A stretch of 44,181 nucleotides of DNA from Candidatus Latescibacterota bacterium (GCA_009691525.1 SICG01000014.1:1-44181); one strand, 5' to 3'; shown: positions 17,998 to 37,974, counted from the stretch's first letter. The notes: generated by a model not told the origin, from the letters alone. Numbers and translations: made by a program.

Positions 17998-19995
17998 TCA
18001 GAACACGATGCTCGACACCGCCTTGGAGATCAGCGCCACGGCGATGGAACTCATGCCCACCAGCCCCATGCCGCAGGAATACCCGGCCAGCAGGATGGGG
18101 GTGTAGACCCGCCAGCGCGCCTCGCCGAAACGGCGCTCAAAGTAGTAGCGGCCCAGCAGGGCGCCGGCCAGATTGAGCATGGAGAAATGGGGCCAGGCCC
18201 CCAACCCGCCGATGAAGCCGTAGAAGAGGGTGATGGGCGCGCGCAGCAGGGAAACCAATCCCAACACCCCGCAGCTGCTCACCAATCCGGTCAGGACGTA
18301 TTGCCAACGCACGATACCCTGGATCAGGCTCTGGCCGCCGGCATCGGGCAGCGTGGACTTGACCCAGAAGGCCTGCATGGTGGCGTGGAAGGGCCAGAAT
18401 TTCTGGACAAAGGGATAGGTCGAGGAGGGGATGGGCCCCAGCTTCCAGATGAAGGACCAGAAGATGAAGCTGCACCCGAACATGATCAGCATCGCCACCG
18501 CAGCCAGCTTGACCACACTGCCAAAATGGGTGCGGGTCAGCTCCAGTTGCTTGAAGGCCGCCACCTCGCCGCTCGAGTCGAAGAGGGGGATGGGCGCAAA
18601 CCACACCGCCGCGCCCTGGTATCCGGAGAGGTAAAAAGACCCCTCCCGCAGATAGGGGAAAGAAGCGCCCTGGGGGCTGCCGGTCAGCCCAATCATGCGC
18701 GCCCCGATATAGGAGAAAACCGGAGTGCAGACAAAGCCGAAGAAGGCGCTGATCCACCAAGGGAATTCGGGTACCAGGAAATGGACCAGCACCACAAAGA
18801 GGGAGGTGCTGCAGGCCCAGATCAGCAGTGCCTTGTAGATAGCGATATCCCCCCGACCCGCTGGCAGTTCGCCCTCTCCCTGCCGTCTGATCCCGCGCAT
18901 CTTCGCCAGGGTGCGGCCCACCATCCAGAAACCCATCAGCGCCACCAGCACCGCCCCGCCGATGGAAAAACTCAGCCAGAAGTCGAAGGAGTTGGAGATC
19001 ACCGTGGGCAGGGCCGACATGCCCGGCTCCCAGGTGTGTAACACCCCAAAACTATAGAGCAGCGGATTGGCCACCAGATTGACCAGCAGCGAGGCCGAGG
19101 CGCTGCCCACCGCAATCCAGAAGGGCAGCACAAAACCGATGATCACGTGGCCCAGGTCCGTGCCCACCCCCATGATCCCGGCCGGCATCAGCGCCCGCAT
19201 CGGCACCGTCAGGTCGATGAAGGGAATGGGCAAGAGGGTGACGGCTTCGGTGAGGAAGATGCCCGACAGGGTGGGGATCACCACGTAGAACAAACCCCAG
19301 ATCACCCCGATGAACGCGCCGATGCTGAACACCTCCCAGCGCCAGCCCTCACTCGCCTGCGAACTCTCGGCCAGGGCCGTGGCCCCGCCGGCCTGCACCG
19401 AGGCCATGGGAAAGGGCAGGCGCTCGATGTCGTTGGTGATGCGGAACATCACATAGCCCAGCGAGAGGCTGTTGATCTTTTGCAGCACGATGACCAGCAG
19501 CAGCAGCCCGATGGGTTTGATCCAGGCCGCATCCAGGAAGGTGCGCTGCAGCAGAGCCTCGGAACCCCGGGGGGGCACCACCCACTCGGGGATGTAGCGA
19601 TGCAACTCGTCGGCCTGCGGCGACTGGACGAGGAACTGATCCCAGATCAGGCTGCCAAAGGGACCACCAAAGAGATCGGCCCCGGTGCCGAGTTTGCCGC
19701 CCACCGCCACCAGACCGCCGGCCACCCAATAGAGGATGATCACCTCCTGGATGCGCAGCCGGACGAAGGAGCGTTTGGCGATCTCGATGAAGAGGATGAG
19801 GGTGACCCACTCGGCTCCCCCGGCCATGCTCTGCCCGGTGACCAGGCCCAGGTAAATAGCCCCCGGCAGCATCAGGAAACCCACAAAGAGGGCGGCCCAT
19901 ACCGTCTTGAGGCTGAAGCCCGGGGCAAACTGCAGATCCTCGGGGATCAGATTGAAGCCTGACTTGTCCTGCGGTTTGGGTTCAGTGCCTGCCAT
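17998..19995 (-). CDS. OPT-like multispanning membrane protein (DUF6785/DUF6784 type), second of pair
   Basis: A 665-residue polytopic protein with roughly 14 hydrophobic segments, beginning FAPGFSLKTVWAALFVGFLMLPGAIYLGLVTGQSM, which recalls oligopeptide-transporter (OPT) entry helices. It shares the motif YIPEWVVP with its neighbour, whose version is YIPEWLVPRD, so the two are related. The family is usually annotated only as DUF6785/DUF6784. A peptide or metal-chelate transport role is inference from OPT resemblance. The start is the ATG at 19995 (MAGTEPKPQ), one base after the previous stop and preceded by GGGGA. The open frame extends to 20052, but that part overlaps the neighbouring gene. 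Confidence 0.82.
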   Translation of the reverse strand: MAGTEPKPQDKSGFNLIPEDLQFAPGFSLKTVWAALFVGFLMLPGAIYLGLVTGQSMAGGAEWVTLILFIEIAKRSFVRLRIQEVIILYWVAGGLVAVGGKLGTGADLFGGPFGSLIWDQFLVQSPQADELHRYIPEWVVPPRGSEALLQRTFLDAAWIKPIGLLLLVIVLQKINSLSLGYVMFRITNDIERLPFPMASVQAGGATALAESSQASEGWRWEVFSIGAFIGVIWGLFYVVIPTLSGIFLTEAVTLLPIPFIDLTVPMRALMPAGIMGVGTDLGHVIIGFVLPFWIAVGSASASLLVNLVANPLLYSFGVLHTWEPGMSALPTVISNSFDFWLSFSIGGAVLVALMGFWMVGRTLAKMRGIRRQGEGELPAGRGDIAIYKALLIWACSTSLFVVLVHFLVPEFPWWISAFFGFVCTPVFSYIGARMIGLTGSPQGASFPYLREGSFYLSGYQGAAVWFAPIPLFDSSGEVAAFKQLELTRTHFGSVVKLAAVAMLIMFGCSFIFWSFIWKLGPIPSSTYPFVQKFWPFHATMQAFWVKSTLPDAGGQSLIQGIVRWQYVLTGLVSSCGVLGLVSLLRAPITLFYGFIGGLGAWPHFSMLNLAGALLGRYYFERRFGEARWRVYTPILLAGYSCGMGLVGMSSIAVALISKAVSSIVF

Positions 19996-19996
19996 C

Positions 19997-21934
19997 TCAA
20001 TCCCCGTACAGCGGGTGGCCCTGCCCTGGGAACCAGAGCATGTCGACCACAAAGGAAATGCCGATCCCGGAGAAATAGCCCAGGATCACCCCGATGAAAA
20101 AGGGCACCGCTTTGTAGTAAAGCTGAATGCCCCCTGAGCGCATGATCACCCACTTGCTCAGCCAGGCAAGAAAAATACTGAAGACATAGAGGTTCATCGG
20201 GTAGCCGCAGATCCCCACCGGCAAGCCAATAGGGTGGATGGGCCACCAGGGGAAACGGTACCGCATGAAGGTCAGCCCCCCCATCAACCCGGCGCCGATG
20301 GCCGCGTGGCCCAGGCGCACCCAGTCCGGGCCCTTGGTGTCGGTGATCTTGCGCAGCACCTCCACGTAGGGCACCCGCGAGCCGTCGCCAAAGATCCAGC
20401 CCCCGTAGTTGTACGCCCCGTAGGTATAGCCCATGTACAGGGCAAAGACCATGGAGACCACCACCGCCACCAGGGCCGCCAGCAACACGGAGAAGGTGGC
20501 GGTGCTGCGGCGCATCTTCATCACGTCGGTGATCTTGGCGCTGTTGGCCGCCGCCGCCATGAAGAAGCCCTTCAACTCGTGGTGCCACGAATAGGACAGG
20601 CCAAAGGCGATGTGGCTCTGCACCGGCATATTGGGCCCGCCCAGGGCATAGCCCACAAAGGTCTGGCCGATGAGCGGGCCGCGGATGAAGAGGGTGCCGC
20701 CCTCCACGACGATGCGGGTGACCCCGGTGTAGAGAACGATGGTGGCCAGGATGAAGAGCGACAGCCCCAGCACCGACATGCCCGAGCGCCACAGCCAGAA
20801 AGCGATGTAGAGCGTGGACAGGGCCGTGCCAAAAACTATGGTGCGGTAGGACATCAACTCATTGGAATCGTCGATCCCCGAGTCCCGGTGCCAGGCCTTG
20901 CGCCAGATATCGCCCAGGTGCCGACGCGCCATCCAGAAGAGATTGGCCACCATCACCACCATGGCGCCAAAAGCCTGCCAGCTCACCCCCTCGTGGCCCA
21001 AGGAGTACACGTCGCGGCCGGTAATGGTGTACCCGAAGCGGTTGAAGAGCCCTTCCTGGAGCATGGTCAGCAGGGTGAAAAACCACAAGCTGAAAGACAC
21101 ATCGAGGTTGACGAAGAAGGTGAAGCTGAGGACCGCGTAGTTGATGGCCGTGGAGATGGGGGGAAACTCGCGGCCCACCTGGATATTGCCCGACAGGTCC
21201 ATGGGAATGGGCGGGAAGGCCGGGGTGAAGTAGCTGACCACGTTCCACATGACGATGAAGAAGGGGATGGCGAAACCGATCCAGAACTGCCGGCGGCGCA
21301 CAAACCCCGGCCAGAGCGAACCCTCGGGGGTGGAGATGAGCTGCTGCGGCACTTCCATCAGCGCATAGGGCAGCCGCTCGTGCTCCACCCACTGCTTGCG
21401 CAGGGCGGCCACCAGGCACTGACAGAGGAAGAAGATGGCCATTACCAGACTGATCCACCAGAAGAGCGGCACCACCCAGACCTCCCAGGGAATGGGCTGG
21501 CCGGCAGGAATGCCGTTGTAGAACCACTTGAGTGCGGTCAGGTCGCGGGGCACCAGCCACTCGGGGATATATTGCACCACCTTTTCGTTCCAGGCGTTTT
21601 CGGGCGAAGCGAAGTACTTGGGGGCGGCGATCACCGCGATCAGGTAGGTGGAAGTCCCCCAGGTGGGGATGGAGGCGCCCACCAGGGCCATGATGAAGAT
21701 CAGGCCCAGCTCAGTGGTATCGAGGCCGCGCACCTTCCCCAGCGAAATCAGCGCCGCATTGCTGCAGACCAGCAGGGTAAAGAGGAAGACCACACTCAGC
21801 GGCAAATAGCTGATATCCCACTGCGAGGAATGCAGGATGTACAGGCCATAGGGCGCCCCCACGTTGATCAGGCAGACCAGCAAGAGCCCGATCAGCAACG
21901 CCCGCAGGGGCAGTTTCTGGCGTCCCTCGCTCAT
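19997..21934 (-). CDS. OPT-like multispanning membrane protein (DUF6785 type), first of pair
   Basis: A 645-residue protein with about 14 membrane segments, starting LPLRALLIGLLLVCLINVGAPYGLYIL and containing YIPEWLVPRDLTALKWFYNG near residues 130-150. A cytoplasmic stretch HERLPYALMEVPQQLIS follows near 215, and FYKAVPF-like aromatic loops occur near the C-terminus. It is homologous to the gene immediately downstream. The ATG overlaps the stop of the M28/FtsX gene (ATGA), with GGAGGTGGC as an embedded ribosome-binding site. This fixes all three as one translational unit. The transported substrate is unknown. Confidence 0.83.
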   Translation of the reverse strand: MSEGRQKLPLRALLIGLLLVCLINVGAPYGLYILHSSQWDISYLPLSVVFLFTLLVCSNAALISLGKVRGLDTTELGLIFIMALVGASIPTWGTSTYLIAVIAAPKYFASPENAWNEKVVQYIPEWLVPRDLTALKWFYNGIPAGQPIPWEVWVVPLFWWISLVMAIFFLCQCLVAALRKQWVEHERLPYALMEVPQQLISTPEGSLWPGFVRRRQFWIGFAIPFFIVMWNVVSYFTPAFPPIPMDLSGNIQVGREFPPISTAINYAVLSFTFFVNLDVSFSLWFFTLLTMLQEGLFNRFGYTITGRDVYSLGHEGVSWQAFGAMVVMVANLFWMARRHLGDIWRKAWHRDSGIDDSNELMSYRTIVFGTALSTLYIAFWLWRSGMSVLGLSLFILATIVLYTGVTRIVVEGGTLFIRGPLIGQTFVGYALGGPNMPVQSHIAFGLSYSWHHELKGFFMAAAANSAKITDVMKMRRSTATFSVLLAALVAVVVSMVFALYMGYTYGAYNYGGWIFGDGSRVPYVEVLRKITDTKGPDWVRLGHAAIGAGLMGGLTFMRYRFPWWPIHPIGLPVGICGYPMNLYVFSIFLAWLSKWVIMRSGGIQLYYKAVPFFIGVILGYFSGIGISFVVDMLWFPGQGHPLYGD

Positions 21935-30813: not shown

Positions 30814-32490
30814 TTATCTCATACCCAACTGCCGCACCTCGAATCCCCGGTCGCGGCGCACCACCAGCAACCGGTCGGCAGAGACCTCCCCAAGCTGCTC
30901 GACCTTGCCGTCTGGCCAGCGGACTTCCACCTCGGCCCGCTGCGCCTGCCCCAACCCGAAATGGGCGCGGGGATCGCTGTAGGACAGGTAGCTGCCGGCC
31001 CCGCCGATGGTGCGCTGCTGCATGCCGGCCGCCGTGTGTACCCGCACCCGGGCCCCCACCCCGTCGCGGTTGATCCCCTCCCCACCCTCCACCTGCACCC
31101 GCAGCCAGTGCTGGGTATTCTCGCCCTCGTTGCAGAGCAGGGTGGGTTCCTGGTCGAGGTTATTAACAAAGATGTCCACATCCCCGTCGTCGTCGTAGTC
31201 GCCAAAGGCCGCGCCGCGCCCCACCCGGGGCTGCTGCATGCCCGTCCCGCCCTCCACCTCCGAAAACCGCCCACCTCCCTCGTTGACAAATAGCTGATTG
31301 CGCTGGGCGTAGGAAACGCCGGTCTGTCCCTGTTCTACCTGCGGGTACACATGGCCGTTGACCACAAAGAGATCCAGGTCCCCGTCATTGTCCCCATCGA
31401 AGAACTTGGTCCCCCAGCCCAGAAAATCTAGGGTGGGCGCTGCCAACCCCGCTGCCGCCGTGATATCGGTAAAGCTGCCCTGCCCCTCGTTGCGGTAGAG
31501 GGTATTGGGCTCGCGATAGAAGTTGGTCACATACAGGTCCACGTTTCCATCGCTGTCGTAGTCGGCCGCATCCACCCCCATGCCCGCCTGGGTACCCCCT
31601 TCACCGCTGTACGCCACCCCGGCCTGCACCGCCACCTCGGAAAAGTGCCCCTTGCCCTCGTTGCGGAACAAGGCATTGGGGGTCTCGTCATTGGCCACCA
31701 GGATATCCACATCCCCGTCGTTGTCGTAGTCCTCGGGCATCAAGCCCAGGCCGTAGTACTCGCTGGCCGGCCCGGCGATGCCGGCGCTGACACTCACGTC
31801 AGCGAAGCGCCCATCCCCCTCGTTGCGGTAGAGCACGTCGGCAGCCCCTTCCATACCCTGGGGTCCGCAGTAAACGCGTAGGCCACCCAGGTACACGCAG
31901 GGCTCGTCCAGCGAAGAGTCGGCGGGCACCGCAGCCAGATCGAACTGCACGTAATTGGCCACGTACAGATCCAGGTCCCCGTCCTGGTCGTAGTCGAAGA
32001 AGGCGGCGCTGGCGCTGTACGCATCCCCGGCCACTCCGGCCTGGGTACTCACATCGGCAAAGGTGCCGTCGCCCCGATTGTGGTAGAGGGTATTGGGTCC
32101 GTAGGTGGTCACGTACAGATCCGCGCGCCCGTCGTTGTCCACATCCCCCACCGCCGCGCCCAACCCCCAGCCACCCTGCCGCACCCCGGCCTGGTCTGTC
32201 ACCTCGGCAAAAGTCCTGTCGCCCAGATTGCGGTACAGCGCGTTGCCTGGACCGGCGTGGTTTTGGTATTGCTCAAAGGTGGAACCATTGACCACATACA
32301 GATCCAGGCGGCCGTCCCCATCGTAGTCGAAGAAAGCGGCACCGCTGCCGGTGGATTCGAGGATATAGCGCTTCTGCAAACCGCCGCAGGTATTGGGCCG
32401 CAACAGCCCCGCCTCGCGGGTCTTATCCACAAAACGGGGTTGGGCCCACAGCGAAAGGGGAAGAAGCAGGAACAGGAGGGAGACGATCAA
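30814..32490 (-). CDS. Exported CRTAC1 / FG-GAP propeller protein with ASPIC-UnbV domain
   Basis: A secreted protein of about 558 residues. After the hydrophobic signal SLLFLLLPLSLWAQ there are seven calcium-binding FG-GAP/VCBS blades with repeating DxDxDGxxDL motifs (FDYDGDGRLDLYV, GDVDNDGRADLYV, FDYDQDGDLDLYV, EDYDNDGDVDILV and so on) alternating with LYRNEGxGxFxDV. The last 90 residues match ASPIC/UnbV (QHWLRVQVEGGEGINRDGVGARVRV, SDPRAHFGLGQA). The start is inferred as TTG at 32490, overlapping the previous stop (TTGA). An ATG at 32574 would overlap the conserved SUMF1 C-terminus but give a more basic signal region. Last gene of the four-gene operon; function unknown, likely surface adhesion or scaffolding. 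Confidence 0.83.
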   Translation of the reverse strand: MIVSLLFLLLPLSLWAQPRFVDKTREAGLLRPNTCGGLQKRYILESTGSGAAFFDYDGDGRLDLYVVNGSTFEQYQNHAGPGNALYRNLGDRTFAEVTDQAGVRQGGWGLGAAVGDVDNDGRADLYVTTYGPNTLYHNRGDGTFADVSTQAGVAGDAYSASAAFFDYDQDGDLDLYVANYVQFDLAAVPADSSLDEPCVYLGGLRVYCGPQGMEGAADVLYRNEGDGRFADVSVSAGIAGPASEYYGLGLMPEDYDNDGDVDILVANDETPNALFRNEGKGHFSEVAVQAGVAYSGEGGTQAGMGVDAADYDSDGNVDLYVTNFYREPNTLYRNEGQGSFTDITAAAGLAAPTLDFLGWGTKFFDGDNDGDLDLFVVNGHVYPQVEQGQTGVSYAQRNQLFVNEGGGRFSEVEGGTGMQQPRVGRGAAFGDYDDDGDVDIFVNNLDQEPTLLCNEGENTQHWLRVQVEGGEGINRDGVGARVRVHTAAGMQQRTIGGAGSYLSYSDPRAHFGLGQAQRAEVEVRWPDGKVEQLGEVSADRLLVVRRDRGFEVRQLGMR

Positions 32491-33173
32491 CGCAGATCCC
32501 GCGCGCAGCGGAAGCCCAGACTGTTGCTCTTGATGTAGGAGTGAGCGGAAGAAACCGTAGCGCGGTTGGCGCATTTGCACATGCTCTTGCCGTTGACCCA
32601 GGAACCCCCGCGCAGGTACGCGCCCGCCGCCGAATCGGCCGCCGTCCACTCCCACACATTGCCCGACAGGTCCATCACCCCCTGGCGACTGGCGCCCGAC
32701 GGGAAACTGCCCACCGGGGCGGTGCGGCCAAACCCGTCCTTGTCGCCAAAGAGATTGGCCCGGCCTTCGGCATCATCCTCGCCCCAAGGATAGGCGCGTT
32801 CGTCGGTGCCAGCACAGGCCCGATACCACTCCTGCTCGGTGGGCAGACGCTTGCCGGCCCACGTGCAGTAGGCGCGGGCCCCCTCCCAAGAAACCTCGAT
32901 AACCGGATGCTTCTCAAAGCCGGCCTTGGGGACAAAACGCCCCTCCTGTGCCTCGATGAGCGAGAAGCGCGTGCCCAACTCCAGCCAAAGCGCCCGGTCC
33001 TCGGGCTGAGTGCCCTTTTCGTTGAGGAAGGCGGAGTACTGAGTGTTGGTCACCTCGTATTTGTCGAGGGCGAAGCTCTTGTCGATGGCGACCATTGCCG
33101 AGTCGGAGGGCGACACTTGGGCAAGGGCCGTCTGGGTGAGCAGGACTGAGAGCAACAGATATTTCTTTGTCAT
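32487..33173 (-). CDS. Exported SUMF1/formylglycine-generating-enzyme-fold protein
   Basis: A 228-residue protein with a signal peptide (MTKKYLLLSVLLTQTALAQ) and the SUMF1 core: ALDKYEVTNTQYSAFL, HPVIEVSWEGARAYCTWAGKRLPTEQEW, MDLSGNVWEWT, RGGSWVNGK and GFRCARD. True formylglycine-generating enzymes use two copper-binding cysteines in a GGSxxCxxSYC pattern. Here it reads GGSWVNGKSMC, so the first cysteine is Asn and only the second remains. I therefore expect a SUMF1-fold binding or non-FGE protein rather than a sulfatase activator; no sulfatase is present in the window. It is coupled by ATGA to the TPR gene and by TTGA to the CRTAC1 gene. Confidence 0.85.
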   Translation of the reverse strand: MTKKYLLLSVLLTQTALAQVSPSDSAMVAIDKSFALDKYEVTNTQYSAFLNEKGTQPEDRALWLELGTRFSLIEAQEGRFVPKAGFEKHPVIEVSWEGARAYCTWAGKRLPTEQEWYRACAGTDERAYPWGEDDAEGRANLFGDKDGFGRTAPVGSFPSGASRQGVMDLSGNVWEWTAADSAAGAYLRGGSWVNGKSMCKCANRATVSSAHSYIKSNSLGFRCARDLR

Positions 33174-34645
33174 AACCTTGCCGTAGAAGTGGAATCGGAT
33201 GACCCGACCCCGCCAGGCGTCCAGGTGCCGGGTCGGGGACGGTTAGAGGGCGGTAACTTCCAGGTGGGTCCCGACCATCCCCCCAGTTGGATCAGGCGCT
33301 GCCGGCCAGTGGCCAGGCGCTGGGCCTCGGGCAGGTCGGGGGCGGCCAGTTCCAGGTACCGCGCCCAGACCTGGCGCGCCTGGGCCGGATCGACCTGCTC
33401 GTAGATGGCCGCCAGATGGTAGAGCCATAGGGCCTTCTCGGGCTGCAACTCCACCGCCCACAGGCTCTCATCCAGCGCCCCACCGAGCACGCCCATCTGG
33501 CGGTAGACCTCACCGAGGGAAGCGTGTACTTCGGCGTTGGCCGGGTACTGCTCCTCGGCCTGCTTGAAAATCTGGACCGCCTCCTGCAGCCGAACCTGAT
33601 GCATGTAGAGCCCGCCCAGCTTGAGGGCTGCGTCCCCTTTGTCCCCACCCAGCTGCACCGCTGCCCTGAAAGCCTGCTCGGCCTGGGTCAGGTCGCCCTG
33701 CTGGCTGTAGACGATGCCGATGTTCACCTTGACCGCCGCCTCGCGCGGCCGCACCGCCTCCAGCTTGCGGAAGGCCTCCAGGGCCTGATCCTGGCGTCCC
33801 TGGCTGCTGTGGATCAGCCCCTGGTAGCGATAGACCTCCACCAGGGTGGAGTCCTGTGCCCGGGCCTGCTGGAGCTGGACCTGGGCTCGGGCCAGGTCGC
33901 CTAGCTCCCACCACAGCCGGCCCAGTTCGAAGGACAACACCGCGTCGTCCGGCCGGGCAGCCAACCCATCTGCCAGCAACTGCCTGGCCATGTCAGTGGC
34001 CCCGCCGCTCTTGTAGAGGGCTGCCAGTTCGATCCGGATACCGTCGTCCTGGGGGGATAACTCCAGGGCCTGGCGGTAAAGGCGCAATGCATCCTCGGGG
34101 CGTTTCAGCGCCACCTCAATCCTGGCCAACTGGAGAAGGACATCGGGTTGGTTGGGGCTCAATTCGAGGGCGGCCTGATACGCAGCCTCGGCCGAACGCA
34201 GGTTGTTTTGCACATGGCCCAGGGCCTGGTACACATTGCCCAGCTGGAGATAGACCGCAGCGGTTCGGTATTCCCGGCGGATGGCGTCCTGAAAGGCCCT
34301 GGAAGCCGCGTTGTACCGGCCCTGAGCCGCCATGCTGGCCCCCAGGCCGGCGTAGGCCTCGCTCAGGTCGGGGTGCTGGGCCAGCAGCGCCCGCCAGAGG
34401 CGGGTCTCGTCTTCGTACGCCCCGCGCGCCCGGTAGAGCCGGGCCAGGGAGAGGTAGGTTTCGGCCCGGGTGGAGTCGAGGGCCAGGGACTGCTCCTCGC
34501 AGTAGGTGGCCTGGGCCAGCTCTGCCGGCGGTAGGGCGCGCAGGACGCGACTGCCGATCAGCTCCTGGGTCTTTTGGTGCCAGTCGCCGGCGTCGCGGCT
34601 GCAGGCGGCCAGTCCACACCAAAGCAGCAAAACCCAGCGCTTCAT
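33170..34645 (-). CDS. TPR-repeat lipoprotein
   Basis: A 491-residue predicted lipoprotein: MKRWVLLLWCGLAAC gives a lipobox with the acylated cysteine at residue 15. The rest is a solenoid of about 11 tetratricopeptide repeats, with recurring units such as AYAGLGASMAAQGRYNAA, VYLQLGNVYQALG, VLLQLARIEVALKRPEDAL and VHASLGEVYRQMG. TPRs mediate protein binding, so it may hold the neighbouring exported proteins together at the membrane. The start at ATG 34645 shares one base with the upstream stop (TGATG) and is preferred to the earlier in-frame codon at 34741, which lies inside the upstream gene. No enzymatic motif is seen. Confidence 0.87.
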   Translation of the reverse strand: MKRWVLLLWCGLAACSRDAGDWHQKTQELIGSRVLRALPPAELAQATYCEEQSLALDSTRAETYLSLARLYRARGAYEDETRLWRALLAQHPDLSEAYAGLGASMAAQGRYNAASRAFQDAIRREYRTAAVYLQLGNVYQALGHVQNNLRSAEAAYQAALELSPNQPDVLLQLARIEVALKRPEDALRLYRQALELSPQDDGIRIELAALYKSGGATDMARQLLADGLAARPDDAVLSFELGRLWWELGDLARAQVQLQQARAQDSTLVEVYRYQGLIHSSQGRQDQALEAFRKLEAVRPREAAVKVNIGIVYSQQGDLTQAEQAFRAAVQLGGDKGDAALKLGGLYMHQVRLQEAVQIFKQAEEQYPANAEVHASLGEVYRQMGVLGGALDESLWAVELQPEKALWLYHLAAIYEQVDPAQARQVWARYLELAAPDLPEAQRLATGRQRLIQLGGWSGPTWKLPPSNRPRPGTWTPGGVGSSDSTSTARL

Positions 34646-36768
34646 CAGCGCACCCTCTTGGGAGCGGCAGCCCCCTCTTCGAGCAGCACAAAGCGGTCGA
34701 CCTCTAGATCCTGGTAGCGATCGATCTGGCCGCTGGGCCATTGCACTTCGACCTGGTCGACCCGGGAATGTTTGCCCAGGCCGAATTCCTGCTCCAGGCT
34801 GTTGGAACAGCCAAAGCTGTACCCGGAGGAGACCTCGGCGAACTGAAACAGGTCCCCGGCCTTGACCCTAATCTTGGCGCCGATTCCGTCGCGATTGCTG
34901 CCAATGCCCTTGAGGCGGAAGACGATCCAGTGGTTGCCGAAACCTTCGTTGCGGTACAGGGTATTCTCCCACTGGTCGCCCGGCCGCGCCCCGCCCACGG
35001 GCGTGTACAGATCTAAGTCGCCGTCCTGGTCGTAGTCGGCAAAGGTGACCCCGTGCAACTTGCCCAGATTGAGCACCCCCACCTGGGCCGTCACGTCGGT
35101 GAAGGTGCCGTTGCCGTTGTTGTGGAACATGGTGCTCAACTCCCGCCGCTCCATGGTCGGCCCGCCGTTGCCCAGAAAGAGGTCCACGTACCCATCGTAG
35201 TCGAAGTCACCGGGCACCCCGCTCATGGTGCCCAGGGCGCGGGCGAGGCCGGCTTCTTCGGCCACGTCGGTGAAGGTGTTGTTGCCGTTGTTGCGCAAAA
35301 GCACCGAGCGGTCGCGCGGGCGGGTAGAGTGGCCAGCGGCCCGGTCTTCGAGCACTACATCGTACTGGCTCCAGTTGCCGGAGAAGATGTCCAGCAGGCC
35401 GTCGTTGTTGTAGTCGAGGAAGAAAGTGATGAAGCCGTCGATCTGGTCGGCAGCGGTCCCGGTCTGGGCAGTGACATCGGTGAAAGTGCCGTTGCCGTTG
35501 TTGTGGTAGAGCACGTTGGGCTGGGTGAAGTTTTCCAGATAGAGGTCCGGCCAGCCATCCCCGTCGTAGTCGCCAAAGGCGGTGCTCAGGGTCTGCTTGC
35601 GATTGTCGACCCCGGCCCGCGCCGCCACGTCGGTGAAGGTGCCGTTATGGTTGTTGCGGAAGAGCACATTGGTCGAGTCGCCGATGGCCCCGGTGCCGTT
35701 GCCCAGGTAGATATCGAGCCAGCCGTCGCGGTCGAAGTCGCCCCAGGAGGCACAAAAAGTGGACCCATTTTCGTTGCCCACCCCGGCCTGGTCGGTCACG
35801 TCTTTAAAGTGCGCCCGGCCATCGTTCTGGAAGAGGTGTTTCTTGCCCGGGCCGAACCAGCCGTCGCGGGTGATGTACACATCCGCATCCCCGTCGTTGT
35901 CGTAGTCGGCCACCTGAGTGCCGATGCCGCCTTCGGGCAAGATCAGGCCGGACTCCTTGGTGAGGTTGGCGAAGCGGCCTCCGTCGTTGCGGTAGTAGTA
36001 CAGCTCCGGGTGCCCCAGCGCCGCCAGGTCCAGGTCGCCGTCTCCGTCGAAATCGGCCCAGCCGCTGCTGCGACCCCCGTTAAACTTGTTCACGCCCATG
36101 GCCCTGGCCACCTCGGTGAAGCGGCCGCCCAGGTTGCCGGTGTCGGGAATGGCGTCGGCGAAGCGGTACGGCTCAGGGATAGTCTTCGGATTGCGGCCCA
36201 GCAGGAGCTGCACCTGTAGGTAATGCCAGCGCACCTTGAGAATGGCGGGGTGGTGATTGATGGTTTTCCTGAAGAGCGAGTCAGCGGCCAGGTTATCCTT
36301 GAGCCACAGGGCAGCGAGGGCCGATTGGTAGAGGGGTTCGTACCCGGTGGAGTCCACACTCAAGGCCCCGGCAAAGTAGTGCCTGGCTTCTTTGAAGCGC
36401 CCCTGCTCCAGGGCCTCCTTGCCCCGGCCCAGGTATGTTTCCAAGATAAGCTGACGAGCCGCCTGCAGGCCCGGCTCCAGCTCCCAGGCCCGGTGCAGCG
36501 AGGCGATGCCGTCCTCGATGCGGCCCTGCATCAGGTGCAGTCGGCCCAACTGCCAGTGCCCTTCGTACGCCCCCGGGTCGAGCTGGATGCAGCGTTCGAA
36601 GTGTTGCTCGGCCTCGCGCAGGCGATAGCGCTCCAGCAAGTCGAGTCCCTGCCGGTAGGACAAGACAAAAACCTCGGACCGCAAAGGGGGCTGGGGGCCG
36701 GGCGCAGCACAACTGGCCAGGGCCCACACCGAGAGGAAGGACAGCAGGCGACACACGTTTTTGCCCAT
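34645..36768 (-). CDS. CRTAC1-type lipoprotein with TPR, FG-GAP propeller and ASPIC-UnbV domains
   Basis: A 707-residue predicted lipoprotein: the signal LLSFLSVWALASC ends in a lipobox cysteine near residue 20. Residues 35-200 contain TPR-like units (RLREAEQHFERCIQLDPG, GHWQLGRLHLMQGRIEDGI). Residues 215-600 form a seven-bladed FG-GAP propeller with calcium motifs such as ADFDGDGDLDL, ADYDNDGDADVYI, GDFDRDGWLDIYL and GDYDGDGWPDLYL. The end is an ASPIC/UnbV domain (NHWIVFRLKGIGSNRDGIGAKIRV). It is the first gene of the operon. The promoter -10 lies only 9 bases from the ATG, suggesting a nearly leaderless message. The family has no established biochemical role in bacteria. Confidence 0.88.
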   Translation of the reverse strand: MGKNVCRLLSFLSVWALASCAAPGPQPPLRSEVFVLSYRQGLDLLERYRLREAEQHFERCIQLDPGAYEGHWQLGRLHLMQGRIEDGIASLHRAWELEPGLQAARQLILETYLGRGKEALEQGRFKEARHYFAGALSVDSTGYEPLYQSALAALWLKDNLAADSLFRKTINHHPAILKVRWHYLQVQLLLGRNPKTIPEPYRFADAIPDTGNLGGRFTEVARAMGVNKFNGGRSSGWADFDGDGDLDLAALGHPELYYYRNDGGRFANLTKESGLILPEGGIGTQVADYDNDGDADVYITRDGWFGPGKKHLFQNDGRAHFKDVTDQAGVGNENGSTFCASWGDFDRDGWLDIYLGNGTGAIGDSTNVLFRNNHNGTFTDVAARAGVDNRKQTLSTAFGDYDGDGWPDLYLENFTQPNVLYHNNGNGTFTDVTAQTGTAADQIDGFITFFLDYNNDGLLDIFSGNWSQYDVVLEDRAAGHSTRPRDRSVLLRNNGNNTFTDVAEEAGLARALGTMSGVPGDFDYDGYVDLFLGNGGPTMERRELSTMFHNNGNGTFTDVTAQVGVLNLGKLHGVTFADYDQDGDLDLYTPVGGARPGDQWENTLYRNEGFGNHWIVFRLKGIGSNRDGIGAKIRVKAGDLFQFAEVSSGYSFGCSNSLEQEFGLGKHSRVDQVEVQWPSGQIDRYQDLEVDRFVLLEEGAAAPKRVR

Positions 36769-36777
36769 GGGCTAAGA

Positions 36778-36805
36778 ACTATAACTCCTCTTTGCCCTTT
36801 GTCAA
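36778..36805 (-). promoter_or_regulatory. Strong sigma70 promoter of the CRTAC1 operon
   Basis: On the minus strand a perfect -35 TTGACA (36800-36805), 16-base spacer and TATAGT (36778-36783). Nine bases separate the -10 from the ATG at 36768, so the leader would be about 3 bases. A GAGGAG within the spacer is too far from the ATG to act as a ribosome-binding site. Confidence 0.75.
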
Positions 36806-36846: not shown

Positions 36847-37974
36847 ATGAAGATGCTCTTCGCCCTCTCGCTCACCCTCGTTCTGGGCGCGGCTTTTGCC
36901 GGTGCCCAATCCCTGATGAAAGACCGCGCCACCCTGGTACTCGAAGGCAAAGCCGCCCAACTGACCGTGGACCTGGGCGGCGGTTCCATCGCCGACTTCC
37001 ACCTCAGTGACCAGCCTCTCAATCCACTCTCCTGGGACTCGTGGTCCTTCAGCACCGATCCCAACGCCGCCCCTCCGCCTGATCCCAGGTCCATGGGCCA
37101 TTTCCTCTGCCTCGACCGCTGGGGCCCCGCCTCGGATGCCGAGATTAAAAACGGCATGGGCTGGCACGGCGAGGCCACCCGGGTGACCTGGAAGGCGCCG
37201 GATAAGCCCAAGAAGAAGGACGGGCGCATCCACGCCGAGATGAGGGCCGAGTTGCCCATGGGGGGCCTGAACGTCAGACGCAGCGTCGCGCTGGGCGAAG
37301 AACAGCCTTTCTTTGTGGTGTGCGAGGAAGTCACCAACCAGAACAAGCTGGGCCGGCTCTACAACATGGTGCAGCATCCAACCATCGGCCCTCCCTTCCT
37401 CGACGAGCACACCCTGGTGGACGCCAATGGCCGCAAGGGCTTCATGCAGGGCAGCCCCATGCCCAATCCAGAAGAGCCGGCCGTCTTCTGGCCCCAGGCC
37501 CTCAACCGCGACGGGGAGATTGTTAATATTCGCCACCTCAGCGGCGATGCCGATCCAGCCGTGGTCTCCTACGTCATCGACGAAGAGTACGGCTGGACCA
37601 CGGCCAGCAGCCCCACCACCGGCCTGCTCATCGGCTATATCTGGAAGACCTGTGAATACCCCTGGTTCGACGCCTGGCGCCACGCGGCCAATGGCAAACC
37701 CTTTGCGCGCGGCCTGGAGTTCGGCACCTCCGGCCTGCACCAGCCCTTTCCCATTCTGGTGAAGAAAGGCAAGATCTTCGGCCGTTCTATCTACGAGTAC
37801 CTGGATGCCGGCGAAACCGCCTCCAAGTCCTATGCCTGTTTCCTCTTCAAGATTCCCGCCGATTACCAGGGCGTGGCCAGCCTCAGCTACGCCGATGGCA
37901 AGCTCATCCTGCACGAGCGCGACGGCAAACCCGAACGAGATCTAGTGATGGAGGTCGGCCAGCTCTTCCCCTGA
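36847..37974 (+). CDS. Exported galactose-mutarotase-like-fold protein
   Basis: A 375-residue protein with a signal peptide (MKMLFALSLTLVLGAAFAGAQ). The body begins TLVLEGKAAQLTVDLGGGSIADFHLSDQPLNPL, the way aldose-epimerase-like beta-sandwich proteins begin, and contains RSVALGEEQPFFVVCEEVTNQNKLGRLYNMVQHPTIG, where a histidine near residue 178 could be catalytic. I cannot assign a family with certainty; it may be a sugar epimerase-like or carbohydrate-binding protein. The start at ATG 36847 has AAAGGAG at the right distance; the open frame extends far upstream but is antisense to the CRTAC1 gene. It is followed after 8 bases by a PhyH gene. Confidence 0.7.
   Translation: MKMLFALSLTLVLGAAFAGAQSLMKDRATLVLEGKAAQLTVDLGGGSIADFHLSDQPLNPLSWDSWSFSTDPNAAPPPDPRSMGHFLCLDRWGPASDAEIKNGMGWHGEATRVTWKAPDKPKKKDGRIHAEMRAELPMGGLNVRRSVALGEEQPFFVVCEEVTNQNKLGRLYNMVQHPTIGPPFLDEHTLVDANGRKGFMQGSPMPNPEEPAVFWPQALNRDGEIVNIRHLSGDADPAVVSYVIDEEYGWTTASSPTTGLLIGYIWKTCEYPWFDAWRHAANGKPFARGLEFGTSGLHQPFPILVKKGKIFGRSIYEYLDAGETASKSYACFLFKIPADYQGVASLSYADGKLILHERDGKPERDLVMEVGQLFP

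Follow-up and report, generated by a model that had tools for sequence, protein, structure and literature searches.

The 44,181-nucleotide stretch of Candidatus Latescibacterota DNA analysed here (the window) contains a true, conserved and uncharacterised operon of four minus-strand genes, g1–g4 (36768–30814), one member of an extensive class of paralogous, exported CRTAC1/TPR modules; by itself it does not prove that a new machine exists. What is chiefly new is that CRTAC1, TPR and FGE-fold genes are linked repeatedly. Our tentative reading, to which we assign a probability of roughly 0.4, is that this is a vertically inherited operon for a cell-envelope assembly made up of CRTAC1 propellers and TPR lipoproteins, in which g3 would act as a non-enzymatic binding part. 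The features concerned are as follows:

34645–36768, minus strand: g1, a predicted 707-residue lipoprotein with a TPR region (approximately residues 32–190), a seven-bladed FG-GAP propeller, seven calcium motifs and a C-terminal ASPIC/UnbV domain
33170–34645, minus strand: g2, a predicted 491-residue TPR lipoprotein
32487–33173, minus strand: g3, a predicted exported SUMF1/FGE-fold protein of 228 residues, without the FGE active-site residues
30814–32490, minus strand: g4, a predicted exported CRTAC1 protein of 558 residues with seven calcium motifs and a TTG start at 32490
36778–36805, minus strand: promoter TTGACA-16-TATAGT, whose -10 hexamer ends approximately 9–10 nt before the g1 ATG
36847–37974, plus strand: divergent, predicted exported protein, weakly DUF4432-like, conserved beside g1

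The four genes are joined by overlapping stop and start codons, namely TGATG at g1/g2 (1-nt overlap), ATGA at g2/g3 (4 nt) and TTGA at g3/g4 (4 nt), and on verification both the coordinates and the junctions agreed with the original prediction. The strong promoter that had been placed ahead of the operon was likewise borne out: TTGACA-16-TATAGT has 11 of 12 matches, is the sole such site in the 6.5 kb scanned (shuffles give 0.6) and is kept in four same-genus genomes, where roughly 10 nt separate the end of the -10 hexamer from the start codon. The spacing between promoter and ATG suggests that the g1-operon mRNA is almost leaderless. As a regulon marker the motif was discarded, since among the loci scanned it was found only at this operon and, as one loose match, before a CRTAC1 gene. 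For g4, translation might also begin at the in-frame ATG at 32574; TTG at 32490 is the better choice, because it begins exactly at the signal peptide, because the TTGA junction recurs in a same-genus locus (L041) and because in another locus (L046) the g3 stop is immediately followed by an ATG.

Export signals were identified by visual inspection, without SignalP. Each of the four proteins carries one, in line with the original prediction, with lipoboxes in g1 (LASC↓A) and g2 (LAAC↓S) and cleavage sites in g3 (...TALA↓Q) and g4 (...LWA↓Q). The lipobox cysteine of g1, Cys20, is invariant in 13 orthologues. Both g1 and g2 are thus putatively lipidated. Calcium binding and an outer-surface location of the products are predicted, the latter from sequence that would fit a periplasmic location as well.

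Pfam finds TPR, FG-GAP and UnbV_ASPIC in g1, and FG-GAP and UnbV_ASPIC in g4. With UnbV_ASPIC scores of 64 and 70.6 bits (cut-off 23.4) and FG-GAP_3 scores of 169 and 173 bits, g1 and g4, respectively, belong to the CRTAC1/ASPIC-UnbV proteins, and each contains exactly seven Dx[DN]xDG motifs. An AlphaFold model of g1, built on a 13-sequence alignment (pLDDT 80.6), comprises TPR helices, a propeller of seven repeated units and a beta domain at the C-terminus; its top fold match in the PDB is murine CRTAC1 (9etn, E=3e-27, TM-target 0.74), identifying it as a CRTAC1 fold; the assignment of g4 is by sequence only, with 9etn as its sole PDB sequence match. The proposal that two seven-bladed, calcium-binding FG-GAP/ASPIC-UnbV proteins bracket a TPR scaffold and a SUMF1-fold protein holds for the protein type and the seven motifs of both, and for the seven repeats in the g1 model, with calcium binding as a prediction. 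Similarly, the description of g1 as a CRTAC1 lipoprotein was correct in its CRTAC1 part and its lipobox but had missed the protein's own TPR domain, which makes g1 a TPR-CRTAC1 fusion. Like animal CRTAC1, g1 and g4 share seven calcium-motif FG-GAP repeats and an ASPIC domain; unlike it, they are bacterial and encoded in an operon, g1 has a lipidation motif and a TPR domain, and identity in the structural alignment is approximately 21%.

The intervening lipoprotein, g2, is assigned to TPR by Pfam, and lies outside the PrsT family, reaching 130.9 bits with the PEP-CTERM PrsT TPR lipoprotein model (TIGR02917) against a cut-off of 312.2. An orthologue of g2 (E ≤ 1e-60) is present as a single match in 16 of the 47 class genomes, every one of them from one family; G001, G017 and most of genus g5 lack it. 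The g2 residues after approximately 454 (window 33170–33280) are found in its own genus only, without a counterpart in the sister genus g7; this C-terminal tail is possibly the remnant of a lost HAD gene.

The FGE-sulfatase domain of g3 scores 154 bits against a cut-off of 23.3, and its best PDB match is SUMF2 (1y4j). It therefore has the fold of SUMF2 and SUMF1/FGE; unlike SUMF1/FGE, it is a predicted exported bacterial protein that lacks the FGE cysteine pair. Mutation of Cys336, Cys341, Ser333, His337 or Tyr340 alters FGE activity (PMC4505483). When this short active-site stretch was aligned visually, with the GGS motif common to both proteins as the anchor, Ser333 was kept, whereas C336 was replaced by N, H337 by G and Y340 by M (L or Q in orthologues); the 341 position is Cys in the window protein and A or T in orthologues, and the cysteine kept throughout the orthologues, Cys201, lies two residues further on. 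Neither g3 nor its orthologues thus have the Cys336/Cys341 and His337/Tyr340 set, and, with four of the five activity residues missing or not conserved, it is very unlikely that g3 catalyses the FGE reaction; most simply, it would serve in structure or binding. That g3 might instead be an active FGE-type oxidase, modifying g1, g4 or sulfatases, would suit its clear family match, but we regard this as highly improbable, given that the serine is the only consistently kept residue, the Cys at 341 is Ala/Thr in orthologues and no sulfatase gene adjoins g3. A role as sulfatase activator was ruled out on the same residues. We also rejected g3 as the PorK/GldK of its host, for which TIGR03525 gave 55.8 bits against a cut-off of 350, a value reached by no protein in G000 (the window's genome) or G018. 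The FGE domains of poribacterial triads, at which a shared cysteine had hinted, fall apart from g3 in the FGE tree and were discarded as orthologues. Separately, two same-genus proteins of 1107 residues (L154:1127-4447, minus strand; L155:3002-6322, plus strand) carry a C-terminal FGE domain in the sister clade of g3, together with a caspase-like region recognised by eye (ALIIGNGAYE...YYAGHG...VILDACRNNPF).

Conservation of the g1–g2–g3–g4 order in relatives had been named as a check, and the order is kept both in the window's own genus and in a second genus, g7. It is complete in G000, G002 and seven g7 genomes (G015, G018, G020–G023 and G046), of which two, G046 being the second, are single-contig. 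In the same-genus genome G002 the divergent neighbour is also present, while G003 and G004, as well as G010, show the order up to contig ends; in G009 parts of the operon are split over two contigs, and in G014 g1–g2 and g3–g4 lie on separate contigs. Identity to g7 is approximately 60% for g1 and g4, 50–55% for g2 and 48–58% for g3, or about 50–63% overall when the divergent gene is included. Two genomes of family f3 (G029 and G031) have relatives of g1, g2 and g4 at 41, 26 and 47% identity, without g3. The g4 tree places the operon copies in a single supported clade of 15, together with three paralogues, at a cost of 1–2 label changes. Order conservation, the g4 tree and the patchy distribution together indicate that the operon is a real, mainly vertically inherited unit that is not universal.

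At every g7 locus examined across the gap between g2 and g3, an added HAD gene is present. In L046 it is a Hydrolase_3 member whose coordinates overlap those of both g2 and g3 by 4 nt, and the g7 HAD protein has no evident signal peptide, as in a cytoplasmic-type enzyme. Its start in g7 lies where the own-genus g2 tail sits. These data bear on the suggestion that tight coupling implies one surface complex of fixed stoichiometry, which was not supported: in L046 a cytoplasmic-type gene is coupled through identical 4-nt overlaps, so such junctions are no sign of a surface complex, and not every operon product can share one exported complex. Overlaps are also common elsewhere, being found in 49 of 279 same-strand pairs (18%) outside CRTAC1/TPR modules and in 31 of 151 within them, and we accordingly rejected them as proof of a complex. 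Their frequency among unrelated neighbours, along with the division of the operon between contigs in G014, would be in keeping with ordinary co-transcription, with exported proteins acting independently, overlaps arising from a compact genome and no complex being formed; however, the specific and repeated CRTAC1-TPR-FGE association and the gene fusions argue against such an arrangement, which we consider unlikely.

The neighbourhood admits another explanation. Oligopeptide-type ABC permeases lie just downstream of the operon in g7, and the divergent DUF4432-like gene adjoins g1 in the window's genus, in g7 and in G009, so that the operon might handle nutrients or carbohydrates, with its binding proteins capturing a substrate that the DUF4432-like protein and the HAD sugar-phosphatase-type enzyme of g7 would process. 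We find this rather improbable: the DUF4432 match (26.4 bits) is under the Pfam cut-off of 32.5, the structure model of the divergent protein (pLDDT 43.5) is too poor for a fold search, and the window has neither HAD gene nor permeases, with no glycosidase or sulfatase adjacent.

Envelope assembly, the reading that we prefer, draws on a pattern that extends well beyond this locus. ASPIC/UnbV matches number 31 in the window's own genome and 31–53 in each family member searched, mostly beside TPR genes, with none in 14 control genomes. Operons were listed with a purpose-written codon-usage gene finder, which recovered the known window genes, and their types include CRTAC1>TPR, TPR>CRTAC1, CRTAC1>FGE, FGE>CRTAC1 and CRTAC1-TPR fusions. 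The complete genome G018 has an ASPIC gene no more than 4 kb away from 8 of its 14 FGE genes (mean 0.83 and maximum 6 in 3000 shuffles) and, among the matches listed, from 27 of 56 TPR loci drawn from the best 150 scored candidates (shuffle mean 3.3, maximum 10). The association is weaker in G046, where 4 of 13 FGE genes are near an ASPIC gene, yet still unusual, a value equalled or exceeded in 17 of 3000 shuffles. In G029 and G026, class relatives from a sister family, none of the FGE genes has an ASPIC gene nearby, which indicates that the CRTAC1/TPR core can do without g3.

The same three protein types also occur as fusions: TPR-CRTAC1 (as in g1), CRTAC1-TPR and, in Poribacteria (L110 and L133), FGE-TPR followed by CRTAC1. 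Further poribacterial loci (L113, L119 and L124) contain TPR>FGE>CRTAC1 triads with overlapping frames, and in L083 TPR and FGE genes overlap by ATGA. In the FGE tree, some deep branches of which lack good support, CRTAC1-linked FGE domains are spread over several clades, and the CRTAC1-FGE pairing thus seems to have been established repeatedly and not inherited once; among the matches listed, none of the CRTAC1-linked FGEs has the FGE cysteine pair. In agreement with the statement that the combination has no described function in bacteria, the literature searched yielded no description of it and no function for ASPIC/UnbV proteins. Multi-copy ASPIC/UnbV genes are recorded in Solibacter and Poribacteria (PMC3174227, PMC3909097), which resemble the present genomes in this respect; unlike our loci, no operon, TPR/FGE linkage or function is described in the passages on those genes. 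The operon had been ranked as the window's best candidate for an undescribed system; its order is conserved and it is uncharacterised, and its genome has many other CRTAC1/TPR operons.

On the envelope-assembly reading, g1 and g2 would be exported and lipid-anchored through their cysteines, and, to judge from domain knowledge, their TPR superhelices would hold partner proteins. The calcium-stabilised propellers of g1 and of secreted g4 could then serve as recognition faces, with a glycan or protein outside the cell or in the periplasm as their target, g3 would be a non-enzymatic FGE-fold subunit that binds or bridges, and paralogous sets would differ in what each binds. Any physical complex among these products is likewise conjectural.

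A related possibility is a periplasmic assembly or export helper set, in which TPR lipoproteins and the FGE-fold protein would be chaperone and docking parts through which CRTAC1 cargo is folded or secreted, in the style of T9SS accessory lipoproteins. Similar modules are present in the T9SS: the lipoprotein PorE combines TPR, propeller and CRD (PMC5053529), PorW is another lipoprotein with TPR (PMC8754138), and the FGE fold is found in PorK/GldK. The genome encodes SprA (G000:C165:8416-9693), and of the 96 partners in CRTAC1/TPR operons seven are of the PpiC/parvulin type and six to seven bear a T9SS signal. Unlike the T9SS accessory lipoproteins, however, the operon's products reach no curated T9SS model: g3 is far under the GldK cut-off (55.8 against 350) and g2 far under that of PorE (24.5 against 600 bits), for which no g1 match was listed. 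Their propeller is seven-bladed FG-GAP and not five-bladed WD40-type, OmpA_C was not matched in g1 by the Pfam scan and no OmpA was found in g1 or g2, neither g1 nor g4 was reported to have a T9SS sorting signal, and there is no PPIase in the g1–g4 operon. We therefore hold such a helper set to be doubtful. Broader still, and a long shot, is the idea that CRTAC1/TPR/FGE operons constitute an undescribed, widely paralogised envelope machine of uncultured marine bacteria, which would fold, dock or display many different CRTAC1 propellers in a T9SS-accessory-like manner and would have repeatedly recruited dead FGE-fold proteins as structural subunits.

Irrespective of these readings, the operon provides a defined protein set (ASPIC/UnbV, TPR and catalytically dead FGE-fold) for co-expression, and may bear on the role of animal CRTAC1.

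Several further observations were made on the genome and its CRTAC1/TPR operons. The lineage in which the T9SS translocon protein SprA was found is placed outside Bacteroidota by the records of its relatives. The operon-linked PpiC/parvulin-type proteins are located at L136:5771-7486, L146:101-1774, L175:1791-3479, L192:12432-14033, L194:14043-15410, L202:8528-10060 and L208:2991-4646, and several of the seven carry two parvulin-like regions. The commonest partner family in these operons is DUF6785/DUF6784 (8 of 96), and the window itself encodes two large membrane proteins at 18001–21934, one of which is clearly DUF6785/DUF6784.
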